Shown here piece after piece: positions 7,564 through 12,342 of a stretch of 21,445 bases of DNA (position 1 is the first letter of the stretch; every line of letters starts with the position of its first letter). The notes under the pieces are model-generated. The model did not search any database. It saw only the letters and a program-made list of their open reading frames with translations, and had not been told where the DNA came from. Both the position numbers and the translations under genes were made by a program. Source of the stretch: a virus; the IMG/VR virus record IMGVR_UViG_3300042475_000993, positions 1 to 21,445 of that record; one strand, given 5' to 3'.

Positions 7564-7926
7564 ATGATCGAGGAACTCATCAGCCGCGTGTTCTACGCAC
7601 GCAACGTGGCGCACTTTGAGCACTGGCGCGCCAAGGGTGATGGCAGTTTCGCAAAGCACATGGCTTTGGGCGGCTTCTACGACGACGTGATCGACGCAGT
7701 CGACCGTCTCGTAGAGGCCTACCAAGGCGCGTTCAGTCTCATCGGCAACATACCGGCCCCGAAGGTGTCTGAACGCGACGTGCTGAAGCTCCTAGAGGCC
7801 GACGCTGCGTGGATCGAAGAGCACCACGAGGACATCTGCGAGGGCAACCGCGCAGTGGCCAACTTGGTCGATGGCGTCACAGAAGTGTATCTGACCGCCA
7901 TCTACAAGCTGCGGAACCTGAAATAA
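7564..7926 (+). CDS. DUF5856-like helical phage protein (possibly ferritin/Dps-like)
   Basis: This is a 120-aa protein. The frame is open to 7543, but the ATG at 7564, just after the previous stop, is the natural start. The sequence is nearly all helix, with the segment RNVAHFEHWRAKG, then FAKHMALGGFYDDVIDAVDR, then LVEAYQGAF. That arrangement (H17, H20, H32, paired acids at 40, 41, 44 and 47, then E51) resembles the phage family I know as DUF5856, which looks like a reduced Dps/ferritin-type bundle. Further acids and histidines occur at 85-89 (EEHHE). Metal binding is an inference from these residues; no activity is established. Its stop overlaps the next start (TAATG). Confidence 0.82.
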   Translation: MIEELISRVFYARNVAHFEHWRAKGDGSFAKHMALGGFYDDVIDAVDRLVEAYQGAFSLIGNIPAPKVSERDVLKLLEADAAWIEEHHEDICEGNRAVANLVDGVTEVYLTAIYKLRNLK

Positions 7927-8138
7927 TGGAAATCGACATCAACACCATCATTACCGTTATCGGCTTCATCGGGGGCTTGATAACGGTGTGGGTCAATCTC
8001 AACAGCCGTCTAACGCTGCTTGAGGCACGTCTCGGCTTTGGCGATGAGAAGTTCAATGCCATCGACAAGAAGTTTGACGAGGTGATGATGCACCTGCGTC
8101 GCATTGAGGACAAACTGGACAACAAGGCGGATCGGTGA
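7926..8138 (+). CDS. Single-TM coiled-coil small membrane protein
   Basis: This is a 70-aa protein starting at the ATG of a TAATG overlap; the frame extends upstream to 7809, but that part is a shadow of the previous gene. Residues 6-24 are hydrophobic (TIITVIGFIGGLITVWV), giving one N-terminal transmembrane helix. The rest is a charged heptad-like helix (LNSRLTLLEARLG, then KFDEVMMHLRRIEDKLD) predicted to be a coiled coil. Small TM-plus-coil proteins such as XhlA-type holin partners and inner-membrane spanins are common near phage lysis genes; the layout fits, but the sequence is too generic to assign. It overlaps the next start by one base (TGATG). Confidence 0.82.
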   Translation: MEIDINTIITVIGFIGGLITVWVNLNSRLTLLEARLGFGDEKFNAIDKKFDEVMMHLRRIEDKLDNKADR

Positions 8139-9034
8139 TGAAGCAGTTTCTGATAGGTTTCATAGCAGCCACCAGCTCAGTATCTATGGTGTTCGCGCAG
8201 GCGGCTCCGGTGTCTGTGGCTCCAACGGAGTATATCTACAACACGACGACCAATAGCACGTCGAACAACACCAATACCAACAACAATAATAATACATCCG
8301 CCAGCACGTCCACCAGCACGAACGTGAATACGAACACCAACGTGAACCAGAACATCAACTCTGGCACCGTCACGTCGATCAATCAGAACACGTCGAACAA
8401 CACAAACACCAACGTCAACCAGAACATCAACTCTGGGACGCTGACCAATATCAACCAGAATACGATGGTCAGCACGTCCGATAACACCAACCGGAATATC
8501 GACACGAGCAACAGCACAATCAACCAGAGCGTGAACAGTCAGTCCGACAACACGAACCGCAACATAAATACCGACACGTCGAATTCGACAATCAACAGCA
8601 CAGCTTCGACGAACAACGTTAACCAGAACAACAACGTCAACGTGTCCGACAGCAAGAGCTACAGCGAGAGCGTTAATCGGCAGGTTATCGACCAGAACAT
8701 CAAGTCGCCGCCGCCTAGCGCGATTGCGCCGAGCATGATGTCCTACAGCCAAGACCTTTGCACCACCGGTCAGTCTGGTGCAGTGCAGACGCAGATCCTC
8801 GGCATGAGCCTTGGCCGCACTGTGCGCGATCAGAACTGCGAGCGGATGAAGCTGTCGAAGACCCTGTACGACATGGGTATGCGTGTCGCCGCTGTGAGCC
8901 TCCTGTGCCAAGACACTCGCGTCTTTAGGGCTATGGAGATGGCTGGCACCCCGTGTCCGTTCATGGGTAAGATTGGCGAGGAAGCAACAACGGCTTGGGA
9001 CGAAAATGCTGACCGCCGCCCTGACGCAGAATAA
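8138..9034 (+). CDS. Exported Asn/Thr/Ser-rich repeat protein with C-terminal Cys domain
   Basis: This is a 298-aa protein of unknown function. The ATG at 8138 sits in a TGATG overlap; the GTG one codon earlier is an alternative. Residues 1-20 form a clear signal peptide ending VFA before QAAP, so the protein should reach the periplasm. Residues 35-185 are low complexity, almost only N, T, S, V, I and Q, with two 24-residue repeats (from 66 and 90, NTNVNQNINSGT) and two ~22-residue repeats (from 114 and 136, SDNTNRNI). A compact domain with four Cys (208, 234, 257, 273) follows, including GMSLGRTV, AVSLLCQD and AGTPCP. Two disulfides are plausible after export. Alternating N/T/S residues suggest a beta-solenoid, curli-like or adhesive shape, but that is inference. 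The 3' end overlaps the next gene by 29 bp. Confidence 0.88.
   Translation: MKQFLIGFIAATSSVSMVFAQAAPVSVAPTEYIYNTTTNSTSNNTNTNNNNNTSASTSTSTNVNTNTNVNQNINSGTVTSINQNTSNNTNTNVNQNINSGTLTNINQNTMVSTSDNTNRNIDTSNSTINQSVNSQSDNTNRNINTDTSNSTINSTASTNNVNQNNNVNVSDSKSYSESVNRQVIDQNIKSPPPSAIAPSMMSYSQDLCTTGQSGAVQTQILGMSLGRTVRDQNCERMKLSKTLYDMGMRVAAVSLLCQDTRVFRAMEMAGTPCPFMGKIGEEATTAWDENADRRPDAE
8333..8608 (+). repeat. Tandem repeats in the Asn-rich region
   Basis: A 72-bp unit starting at 8333 is repeated imperfectly from 8405 (24 residues each). A second type, 66 bp from 8477, recurs from 8543. Differences are mostly at third codon positions, so the repeats have been kept in frame and under protein-level constraint. 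Confidence 0.8.
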
Positions 9035-10520
9035 GCGCCTCGCCGCCTTACTGGCTGCGTTACTTGTCAGCACATCTGCGTCTGCGCAGACCTACGAACC
9101 TGCCTTAATTCCCCCGCAAATCAACGGCGCGCCTACCACAATGACGCCCCTCAACCTTGGCGATGATAACACGCGGAACGTAGCTCTTGGCTTCGAGTTT
9201 GAATATTGGGGCCAGACCTTCACCGACGCGTGGGTGTCCTCCAACGGCTTCGTGTCATTCCAAAGCGGCGCGCACTTATGCTGCAACGGCCAGCCCATCG
9301 AACTGGCGCAGCGCAATACGATATACGCCTATTGGTCCGACCTGATTAGCTACACCGGCAATCCGTATTATCGCCGCGACGACGGCTCAATCCTCTTCGG
9401 CTGGTACGGCGTGAACGAGTACGGCACGAACAACAGCAGCACCTTCGAGATCGGTCTGTTTGCCGACGGCAAGATACAACTGAACTACGGCAACCTTGGC
9501 TTTTCTGGTCGGCGCGACTTTACCGCAGGCATCACTGGCCCCACTGCGGATGACAACATACCGCTTTTCTACGGTCGCAACGCGCAGTTCCTACAGAACC
9601 AGTCTGGTATCCTGTCGTGGATTGCGCCTGTCCCAGAGGTCGAGGTTGTTGACTGTAACGTGACGCCGATGGACCCAAGCTGTCCGCCAGCCGCTATTGA
9701 CGTTACGCCTGACCCTGTAGCTGACGTTGCCGAGGCTGTTACCGAGGCTGTTGAGCAGAGTGCGGAGCTTGAGCCGGAAGAAGTAGAAGCGGCGGAAGAG
9801 GCAGCCATTGACGCGCTGGAACAGGCGGAGGAGGTCATGGCGGCTATCGAGGCTGAGACATCCGCAGACGAGCCTGATGAGGAAGTCCCTGTGCGTGAGA
9901 CCGACGACGCTAGTTCCGTCGAGCGGCTGGACCCAGATCAAGTGGCCGCGCTGGCCGCAGGCGGCATGGACGTTTTTGAAATGCCCGAACCTGAACAGGC
10001 ACCCACAATATCATCAACTGGCTCAGACGCAGGGAGTGGTGCCCAGCAACAATTTGGCGGCATGCAGGAGACACAAGACGGCTCGGCATCGGCTACGTTC
10101 ACAACCCAAATGCGGTTCGACACCACGTTCGGAGGAGTGTTCGGACAGGGGCCAACTATATCCGTGGCGCAGAGCGCGTCGCCGTTGGACATGGCCGTGG
10201 CGGCAAGCAGCCCGCTGTCTATGGCTAATACGGTCGAAGTTCTGGGTCTTGGGTCGCCTGCGGCCTCGTCATCTGGCGGAAACGCGCCTCCGTCTGACAG
10301 CGGCATGTCCGAGGGAGAGGGCGAAACAATCGCGGCGATGGGGGCCGTGCCCGGCTTCGCTGCGTACACACAGGCATCCTTACAAGATAGGGCTGACTTT
10401 TACGCAATTCGTGATATATACCGCAGGCGCGTGCTGCGGGACGCAAACTTTGAAATGTATCGCATGATGCAGACAAACGACGCCCGTTGGCAACAGATGG
10501 TGGACGAGCAATATGAGTGA
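9006..10520 (+). CDS. Exported protein with nidogen-like beta domain and acidic linker
   Basis: This is a 504-aa protein. The ATG at 9006, with GGGA just upstream, gives an excellent signal peptide (KR, then AALLAALLVS, cleavage after ASA at residue 27); the upstream TTG at 8973 would add 11 charged residues, so I prefer 9006. Residues ~30-207 look like a beta-sandwich: GFEFEYWGQTF at 62-72 and SSNGFVSF at 78-85 resemble the GF.F.YYG..Y...VSSNGF.SF pattern of nidogen-type extracellular domains. A CC pair (92-93) and C217/C226 could form disulfides. Residues ~237-300 are an acidic Ala/Glu helix or linker. Residues 330-450 are low complexity (Ser/Gly/Gln/Met). The last ~40 residues are a charged helix (RDIYRRRVL, then RWQQMVDEQYE). 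The function is unknown; it is exported and perhaps acts on or decorates the envelope. Confidence 0.88.
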   Translation: MLTAALTQNKRLAALLAALLVSTSASAQTYEPALIPPQINGAPTTMTPLNLGDDNTRNVALGFEFEYWGQTFTDAWVSSNGFVSFQSGAHLCCNGQPIELAQRNTIYAYWSDLISYTGNPYYRRDDGSILFGWYGVNEYGTNNSSTFEIGLFADGKIQLNYGNLGFSGRRDFTAGITGPTADDNIPLFYGRNAQFLQNQSGILSWIAPVPEVEVVDCNVTPMDPSCPPAAIDVTPDPVADVAEAVTEAVEQSAELEPEEVEAAEEAAIDALEQAEEVMAAIEAETSADEPDEEVPVRETDDASSVERLDPDQVAALAAGGMDVFEMPEPEQAPTISSTGSDAGSGAQQQFGGMQETQDGSASATFTTQMRFDTTFGGVFGQGPTISVAQSASPLDMAVAASSPLSMANTVEVLGLGSPAASSSGGNAPPSDSGMSEGEGETIAAMGAVPGFAAYTQASLQDRADFYAIRDIYRRRVLRDANFEMYRMMQTNDARWQQMVDEQYE

Positions 10521-11034
10521 CGAGAAAGAAGAACCAAAGGTTTCGTTCGACGAAAGCGGCTTCAGCTTTAACATTGGCGGCCTGAGCAGTGGCAAGATTG
10601 CCATTATCTTTGCTGCATTCTCAACAATCCTTGGCGGCCTGTGGGCTGGCTTCCAAGTGTATCAGCAGTTCTTGACCATGCAGGAAGTCACGGCGGCTTA
10701 TGTGCCGCCAGACCTATCTGGCATCGAGGGCCGCATCTCGGTATTGGACGAGCGCGTCACGAGCGTCGAACGTCTGACCAAGATCAACAGCGAAGCCCTG
10801 AATTACATGACCGGCTCGATCTCCAGCAGCGTCAGCGGTACACGCCAGACGGTTGATGCGGTGTCGAGCAGCGTACGGAACAGCGACGCGCAGAACATGG
10901 CGATGCAGCGCGCTGTCATAGAACAACTGCGCCAGCAGGATCAGGAACAACAGCGCCGGATCAAGGAGCTTGAAACCGAGACTGCTGAACGTATTCAAAA
11001 GACGCTGGCGAACCCGCTGGCAGGGAAGGACTAA
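10513..11034 (+). CDS. Membrane-anchored coiled-coil protein (spanin-like layout)
   Basis: This is a 173-aa protein starting 8 bp inside the previous gene (ATGAGTGA). An acidic N-terminus precedes one transmembrane segment at about 28-48 (KIAIIFAAFSTILGGLWAGF). A long coiled coil runs from about 70 to 165 (GRISVLDERVTSVERL, then QRRIKELETETAERI), with a Ser-rich hinge near 103-122. N-terminal TM plus periplasmic coil is the layout of inner-membrane spanins, and the holin-like and endolysin genes follow directly, so a lysis role is reasonable. However, phage coiled-coil membrane proteins are diverse, and there is no visible outer-membrane spanin lipoprotein partner with a lipobox. The next gene follows 2 bp later. 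Confidence 0.85.
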   Translation: MSDEKEEPKVSFDESGFSFNIGGLSSGKIAIIFAAFSTILGGLWAGFQVYQQFLTMQEVTAAYVPPDLSGIEGRISVLDERVTSVERLTKINSEALNYMTGSISSSVSGTRQTVDAVSSSVRNSDAQNMAMQRAVIEQLRQQDQEQQRRIKELETETAERIQKTLANPLAGKD

Positions 11035-11036
11035 AG

Positions 11037-11534
11037 ATGGAAGATAAACTAATGGACGCGCGCATCAAGGCGCTCCTCATGGCAGCTCGCACGATGGCGT
11101 TTGTCATCTGCACTATCACCGTTGCCATGATTGCTGGCCTGTTCGTATCGAACGAGGTCATCGACAACAAAGACGTATTCGGCTTGCTGTCCTACGTCAT
11201 GACTTCGGTTGTTGGCGCTGTGGCTGGCTCCTACGCCACGCTGATGGGCATGAAGGGCGAACTGGTCCCGCCACCGCCGGAAGACCGCGACGACCCCGAA
11301 CCAGAGGAGCCTGTAGCGCCTGAACCAGATCCGCTGCCGCTTACACCTGACATGGTTGCGCCAAAGACGTATGACGACCCGCAGGCCACCGTCTTCATCG
11401 ACACACCTGAAGATGACGACGATGACGATATGGAGCCTTGGGAGAAATACCGCAACGACCTGCGCTATGATGCGAACGGTGACGGCGTGGTGGACGAGAA
11501 TGACTTTCCAGATTGGCGGAGTGCAGGGAAATGA
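11037..11534 (+). CDS. Two-TM holin-like protein with C-terminal EF-hand loop
   Basis: This is a 165-aa protein. GGAAGGA about 8 bp before the ATG at 11037 supports that start; M6 at 11052 lacks one. Two hydrophobic helices at 18-38 (MAFVICTITVAMIAGLF) and 47-70 (VFGLLSYVMTSVVGAVAG) give a class II-like holin topology immediately upstream of the endolysin. The C-terminal ~95 residues are unusual for a holin: a Pro/Glu/Asp-rich linker (73-130) with a run of six Asp, then DANGDGVVDEND at 145-156. That matches a canonical EF-hand/dockerin calcium loop, with acidic or Asn ligands at positions 1, 3, 5, 9 and 12. A role in membrane permeabilisation is inferred from topology and context. The stop overlaps the endolysin start (ATGA). 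Confidence 0.87.
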   Translation: MEDKLMDARIKALLMAARTMAFVICTITVAMIAGLFVSNEVIDNKDVFGLLSYVMTSVVGAVAGSYATLMGMKGELVPPPPEDRDDPEPEEPVAPEPDPLPLTPDMVAPKTYDDPQATVFIDTPEDDDDDDMEPWEKYRNDLRYDANGDGVVDENDFPDWRSAGK

Positions 11535-12145
11535 GCCTTATAAACCTACAAGATAAATGTGGATGCCATCCAGATGGTGCGTTCGGACCGGGAACACTGA
11601 AGGCCGCCTGCGCGCATTTCAAGCTGAACAAGAACCGCGCCGCGCACTTCTTCGCTCAGACGGCGCATGAAAGCGGAAACTTTAAGGCGTTCAGCGAGAA
11701 CCTGAACTACGGTGCGAAAGGTCTGCGCGGCATCTTCGGGAAGTACTTTCCGACCGACGCGCTGGCCAAGGCTTACGAGCGCCAGCCGCAGAAAATCGCC
11801 AACCGCGTCTATGCCAACCGTATGGGTAATGGTGACGAAGCGTCAGGCGAGGGCTGGAAATACCGGGGCCGGGGTCCGCTCCAGCTCACCGGGAAGAACA
11901 ATTACCGCGCATTCGGTAAGTATATCGGGCGCGAACAAGAGATTTTGGACAATCCAGACCTCGTCGCTACCGAACTCGGCTTTGAAAGCGCCCTGTGGTT
12001 CTTTGACGCAAACAAGCTCTGGTCGATCTGCGACCAAGGCATCAACGACGCTGCGATCCTCGCACTGACGAAGCGGATCAACGGGGGCACACACGGCCTC
12101 GAAGACCGTAAACTGAAGACCAAGAAATATGCTGCTTGGTTGTAA
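11531..12145 (+). CDS. Endolysin, GH19 (chitinase-like) peptidoglycan hydrolase
   Basis: This is a 204-aa protein starting at the ATG of an ATGA overlap; the in-frame codons back to 11513 belong to the upstream gene. It has GH19 hallmarks: QTAHESGNF with E47 as likely catalytic acid, SENLNYGAKGL with E56 as likely second carboxylate, then YANRMGNG, WKYRGRGPLQLTGKNNY, a DNPDL/ALWFF segment and TKRINGGTHG near the end. Phage GH19 enzymes cut the glycan backbone of Gram-negative peptidoglycan in the periplasm. Residues 6-28 (LQDKCGC, DGAFGP, TLKA) resemble half of a peptidoglycan-binding motif. No signal peptide or SAR helix is visible, so release should depend on a holin, which agrees with the two-TM gene directly upstream. 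Confidence 0.95.
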   Translation: MSLINLQDKCGCHPDGAFGPGTLKAACAHFKLNKNRAAHFFAQTAHESGNFKAFSENLNYGAKGLRGIFGKYFPTDALAKAYERQPQKIANRVYANRMGNGDEASGEGWKYRGRGPLQLTGKNNYRAFGKYIGREQEILDNPDLVATELGFESALWFFDANKLWSICDQGINDAAILALTKRINGGTHGLEDRKLKTKKYAAWL

Positions 12146-12156: not shown

Positions 12157-12342
12157 ATGCTTAATCTGAAGAAACTAATCCAGAAGGAAGCCGAGAAGGC
12201 AATCCTCAAGAAAACTGTAGGCAAAATCCTGCCTATGGACGGCGCAGAGAAGCCCGCCCTCGGCCCCAAGGCTAAGTTGGCTGGTGGTCTGGCGGCTCTC
12301 GGAGCGTTTTTCGCTCTGCTTGCGCAGTTCCTCGCTGGGTAA
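12157..12342 (+). CDS. Small basic protein with C-terminal TM (candidate holin or lysis accessory)
   Basis: This is a 61-aa protein. The N-terminal ~26 residues are a lysine-rich amphipathic helix (LKKLIQKEAEKAILKKTVGK). A short Gly/Pro turn follows, then one hydrophobic segment at about 41-60 (LAGGLAALGAFFALLAQFLAG) up to the stop. Small proteins of this shape occur next to phage endolysins and can be holins, antiholins or virion-associated membrane peptides. I do not recognise the family, and position is the main clue. It closes the second co-directional block: a 65-bp gap follows, one of the few places in the window where genes do not touch. Confidence 0.75.
   Translation: MLNLKKLIQKEAEKAILKKTVGKILPMDGAEKPALGPKAKLAGGLAALGAFFALLAQFLAG

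Follow-up and report, generated by a model that had tools for sequence, protein, structure and literature searches.

The two genes for exported proteins at 8138-10520 of the window (the whole stretch of DNA analysed, 21,445 nt, positions 1 to 21,445 of IMG/VR virus record IMGVR_UViG_3300042475_000993) belong to a three-gene cassette, A-B-C, which is kept as one unit in a fixed order in very different aquatic phages and is apparently undescribed, being annotated mainly as hypothetical proteins. We tentatively propose that its products form a late envelope complex, anchored in the inner membrane, which would act in the release or spread of progeny; this mechanism we infer from the conservation, export signals, location and mobility of the genes described below.

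A conserved three-gene cassette

A tblastn search with A matched 11 phage records (six Pelagibacter, two Roseobacter, a Votkovvirus and two groundwater phages), and the cultured cassette carriers infect SAR11 and Roseobacter. Throughout the phage records examined A is followed by an exported protein, B, and then by a small membrane coiled-coil protein, C. Scanning IMG/VR with the A domain gave at least 597 confirmed A relatives, and 30 further loci were taken from contigs of environmental genome assemblies. Where loci found via A continued for at least 4.5 kb after it (n = 70), C was present in 70/70 and the C-terminal domain of B in 64/70. Because the C model had been seeded from NPL-ending proteins downstream of A, we also ran the reverse test, with three different C proteins as queries and no reference to A: among 126 loci with enough upstream sequence A was present in every one and B in 124. 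An earlier note on this DNA had read A and B as a pair and suggested looking for its conservation as a unit in other phages; the two are indeed adjacent and recur together as expected, but the cassette has three genes and the obligate C had been missed.

The three proteins also diverge together (Mantel correlations of 0.74 for A-B, 0.75 for B-C and 0.56 for A-C, 0/2000 permutations), a pattern by which co-function and co-inheritance are not separable. Median dN/dS in window-type loci was 0.064 for the A domain, 0.142 for the B C-terminus and 0.050 for C, so the cassette is under strong purifying selection (0.05-0.14).

No paper describing the cassette was found among open-access papers, and no functional family for A, B or C in Pfam, PHROGs or NCBIfam, A and C matching none. 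Besides hypothetical, the labels in public records are carbohydrate-binding, OmpA family, tonB and lysozyme; none of these four names was borne out in searches with the tested proteins.

Gene layout of the window

The cassette lies within six consecutive genes on the plus strand (7926-12145), each overlapping or abutting the next: a 70-aa gene, A, B, C, D and a GH19 endolysin. The first (7926..8138, from the sequence and ORF list) encodes a membrane-helix/coil protein directly upstream of A, its stop overlapping the A start (TGATG), and relatives of it precede A in most window-type loci. A (8138..9034) and B (9006..10520, ATG at 9006) share 9006-9034, the 29-bp overlap given in the earlier note along with the same gene boundaries, and B and C (10513..11034) overlap by 8 bp. 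Downstream come D (11037..11534), a 2-TM holin-like neighbour outside the core cassette, and the GH19 endolysin (11531..12145; phrog_181 at E 1.6e-63, PF00182 at E 1.2e-12), so the genes do stand beside lysis genes, as had been noted. A promoter and terminator scan gave no excess over shuffles.

Protein A

A is a 298-aa protein (phrog_20531, E 2e-12) with a predicted signal peptide of ~20 residues (8138..8197), an Asn/Thr/Ser-rich region of variable length (8234..8701) and a conserved domain of ~95 residues (8753..9031). The composition that had been remarked on is pronounced: in residues 33-188 (156 aa), N accounts for 50 positions, T for 30 and S for 26, together 68% of the stretch, and differences in the length of this region accompany total lengths of 261-628 aa in window-type loci. 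The four-Cys domain likewise holds up in alignment, with C208, C234, C257 and C273 invariant in 71 aligned homologues. It is the best conserved part of the cassette, with a mean identity of 65% (77 loci) vs. ~25% for the B C-terminus and for C. The model predicted for it (pLDDT 78) shows a beta-hairpin that leads into helices; it had no match in the PDB, and its significant matches in BFVD were only to uncharacterised or unnamed phage/virus proteins.

Several variants of A were observed. In 19 of 118 homologues (L088, L086, L081, L104 and 15 other loci) the extreme C-terminus is a purely hydrophobic, Leu-rich tail, beyond which there are no basic residues. Two loci have a small lipoprotein-like gene just 5' of A (L003:6558-6818 and L012:886-1101) whose Cys pattern resembles part of the A domain; the L003 copy matches phrog_20531 at E 0.007, and this gene is perhaps a truncated A paralogue. 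The A family extends beyond the cassette, because a distant A-type protein (HMM E 1.3e-6) occurs in Achromobacter phage phiAxp-2, a phage of a different host group (ADP64_000051, L338:44598-45155, minus strand), with B and C absent around it in the part of the genome examined. This protein has a signal peptide, an Asn/Thr/Ser-rich stretch and four matching Cys, and its gene is away from recognised lysis genes and adjoins one for another exported protein, rich in Gly/Ser/Ala (45216-45710).

Protein B

B (504 aa) comprises a predicted signal peptide of ~27 residues (9006..9086), a NIDO-like beta domain (9147..9548), an acidic linker that was correctly picked out before (9690..9945) and a C-terminal domain of ~80 residues conserved among homologues (10278..10517). 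The description of the beta domain as nidogen-like fared less evenly: with an E cutoff of 0.01, PF06119 (NIDO) was detected in 2/56 B homologues (best E 0.0018) and did not match window B itself, but the idea is better served by a match of the B-family profile to the RemA N-terminus (PDB 8gl6 chain D, E 3.9e-9), RemA being a surface adhesin of Flavobacterium. The N-terminal domain is exchangeable: it is NIDO-like in the window and many other loci, several HTVC phages have another kind of beta domain there, and the B of L068 has none, its signal peptide being joined by a Pro/Glu-rich linker to the C-terminal domain. Repeated CxxxxLYxxxCxGY units were seen in other B proteins; those of L091, L081 and L086 carry them as tandem Cys repeats of the form CxxxxLYxxxCxGYxxAYxxQQ, which are seemingly undescribed.

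Export signals

Signal peptides were scored with our own n-h-c/AXA rule, which also fires on the membrane helix of C and so cannot tell a cleaved signal from an anchor. The rule is positive for A and B of the window, as the earlier note had held, and for 99/117 A and 62/81 B among complete homologues at their listed start, against 31/295 in a control of neighbouring genes. That note had named poorly scoring signal peptides on a pair that never co-occurs as grounds for abandoning its reading, and together with the linkage above the result is clearly the opposite.

These signals argue against a structural role of A and B. The cassette often adjoins tail-fibre genes, as virion proteins with misleading N-termini might, but signal-peptide-like N-termini mark most A and B homologues vs. 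~10% of neighbours, phages of unrelated lineages have the cassette in common, and the Cys are invariant as in exported proteins; we regard a place in the virion as very improbable.

Protein C and the holin-like neighbour

C (173 aa) combines a membrane helix at its N-terminus with a coiled coil and carries NPL C-terminally (11011-11019), and in the phage records examined it is a small protein ending in NP[L/M], the NP residues being invariant in the C alignment partly by construction. A search of phages with one C protein gave no match beyond itself.

D ends in an EF-hand loop, and the canonical calcium loop is present in 88/90 of its relatives among the 2-TM holin-like proteins adjoining the cassette. 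A second holin-like type has the loop before the membrane helices in 11/11 cases; 6 of 16,660 background ORFs had it. Examples are window 11037-11534, L011:3870-4226 (CRP-207 gp72) and L109:6752-7084, and these proteins are possibly a calcium-responsive holin-like family.

Mobility and the lysis-gene neighbourhood

Carriers of the cassette include Mosig (Kyanoviridae), S28C10 (Autographiviridae) and HTVC033P, which has been treated among HMO-2011-type phages (PMC9038755). The whole cassette moves between phages with unrelated terminases: Baldr and HTVC202P share 67% identity in A, 60% in B and 44% in C, yet their large terminases share only 21% over 168 residues. A pelagiphage transcriptome paper (PMC12753301) covers HTVC022P and HTVC027P, neither of which was among the tblastn matches for A. 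An empty site is seen in Caulobacter phage GB2A, a relative of the window whose structural protein is 60% identical to that of the window: an orthologue of the window gene at 7564-7926 is followed directly by the endolysin, with no A, B or C.

A lysis gene (holin-like, endolysin or spanin) lies within 4 kb of the cassette in 40/52 loci and none is nearby in 12/52, an association that is suggestive, many of the 52 loci being related. The endolysins are of GH19, GH24, M15 or amidase type; the holin-like calls were made mostly by size and membrane helices, few having family support such as PF11351 for the neighbour in Mosig.

Given this neighbourhood, A-B-C might span the periplasm and disrupt the outer membrane in place of Rz/Rz1. 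The predicted topology of C is i-spanin-like and the cassette sits within the lysis region; only 2/67 C homologues matched a spanin PHROG (best E 6.8e-5). A recognisable nested Rz1 is kept in 1/63 window-type relatives, on the same contig as L014, and GB2A, which lacks the cassette, has nested Rz/Rz1. At that place in L014 and GB2A the window has a 61-aa protein with a C-terminal hydrophobic helix (12157-12342). Two lipobox patterns, which miss some variants such as that of GB2A, found no lipobox ORF on the plus strand of the window, and A, B and C are themselves without a lipobox. Against substitution, A-B-C coexists with Rz/Rz1-type genes in L014, L027, L083 and L068; L014, a close relative of the window, has A-B-C, the GH19 endolysin and nested Rz/Rz1. 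We therefore reject a spanin substitute as a general rule and consider a spanin-equivalent quite unlikely overall, although the single nested Rz1 among 63 window-type relatives makes partial substitution conceivable in the window clade.

Proposed role

Our preferred reading remains a late complex acting at release or spread. A, B and C would be made together with the late and lysis genes of the phage and assemble in the envelope. C would sit in the inner membrane and extend its coiled coil into the periplasm, where it probably holds B by the conserved domain at the B C-terminus. A and B would be exported, long and flexible. B would usually present a beta domain of adhesin type distally, and A would contribute its very well conserved domain, probably stabilised by disulfides; in some A proteins the chain ends in a hydrophobic tail of its own. 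Such a complex may load and remodel the envelope before lysis and, when the cell opens, could aid release or spread, either because the envelope is weakened or because debris is coated and no longer traps virions.

A role in superinfection exclusion or in receptor masking is in our view rather unlikely. Here A and B would occupy or hide envelope receptors or block periplasmic DNA entry, preventing adsorption or injection by other phages or, on debris, by the phage's own progeny. Exported proteins, an exchangeable adhesin-type B domain and mobility between unrelated phages of the same hosts would suit such a role, but classical exclusion proteins are made early, whereas the cassette is positioned beside late lysis genes, a location that speaks slightly against classical exclusion and in favour of action at release. 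No homology of window A, B or C to known exclusion proteins was found in Pfam, PHROGs, NCBIfam or PADLOC; the sole match to exclusion families was marginal and belonged to a spanin lipoprotein, not to A, B or C. A role in defence or anti-defence was also considered and set aside, PADLOC giving one weak match, to the coiled-coil C of Mosig.

The adhesin-type domain of B fits coating, receptor masking or aggregation alike. An adhesive matrix or fibre, in which Asn/Thr-rich A and adhesin-like B would form a sticky substance, on the surface or released, that clumps cells or debris and promotes spread, draws on the low complexity of A and the RemA-like domain of B, and phages of the same hosts carry curli (T8SS) genes proposed to aid aggregation and spread (PMC9599517). 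We think it unlikely: the cassette has no outer-membrane exporter or curli component and no curlin match, and the extended or adhesin parts are nearly absent in L068 and in the shortest A proteins. Identity with curli/T8SS itself is rejected: scans of the cassette proteins and of further window genes against Pfam and PHROG gave no match to a CsgG pore, CsgF or curlin repeat protein.

The broader suggestion of the earlier note, a phage-encoded envelope or surface system, is partly supported by a conserved, exported unit that has an adhesin-type B domain and lies beside lysis genes; of the roles it listed, exclusion, adhesion and release may each apply, release or spread being the one we favour. 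A more ambitious form of our preferred reading, which we put forward as possible but doubtful, is that A-B-C is an undescribed trans-envelope machine of marine phages, built from an inner-membrane anchor and a pair of long exported proteins that include a new domain stabilised by disulfides, and serving a further envelope-level step of lysis and dispersal beside holin, endolysin and spanin. A cassette that stays intact and passes among phages whose terminases are unrelated must bring some benefit in the host envelope, and its presence in very different aquatic phages, usually beside lysis genes, points to a common, unstudied late remodelling of that envelope. SAR11 are the commonest marine bacteria, and the phages that infect SAR11 and Roseobacter influence how highly abundant bacteria of the sea turn over; the cassette offers a way to test how these phages exit their hosts or guard them from rivals.

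Comparison with known systems

Window gene A matches PHROG 20531, a family with no assigned function whose description does not include the A-B-C linkage. Residues 1-203 of RemA of Flavobacterium johnsoniae align with the beta domain at the N-terminus of B-family proteins, but this is a single shared domain, the remainder of B and the cassette being unrelated and other B proteins having a different beta domain. The superinfection-exclusion proteins T4 Imm/Sp and T5 Llp are, like A-B-C, phage-encoded envelope proteins; they are small and made early, and no sequence relation to A, B or C was found. The pelagiphage curli/type VIII secretion cassette (PMC9599517) is likewise a multi-gene exported cassette transferred between unrelated pelagiphages, but it is a different gene set, A, B and C having no match to CsgG, CsgF, curlin repeats, FecR or adenylate cyclase. 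Two-component Rz/Rz1 spanins resemble the cassette in being encoded beside holin and endolysin, in an inner-membrane protein with a periplasmic coiled coil, as predicted for C, and in partners with extended linkers; they differ in their outer-membrane lipoprotein, which the cassette lacks, whereas A and B are much larger and have cleavable-type signal peptides, and in several phages the two systems coexist.
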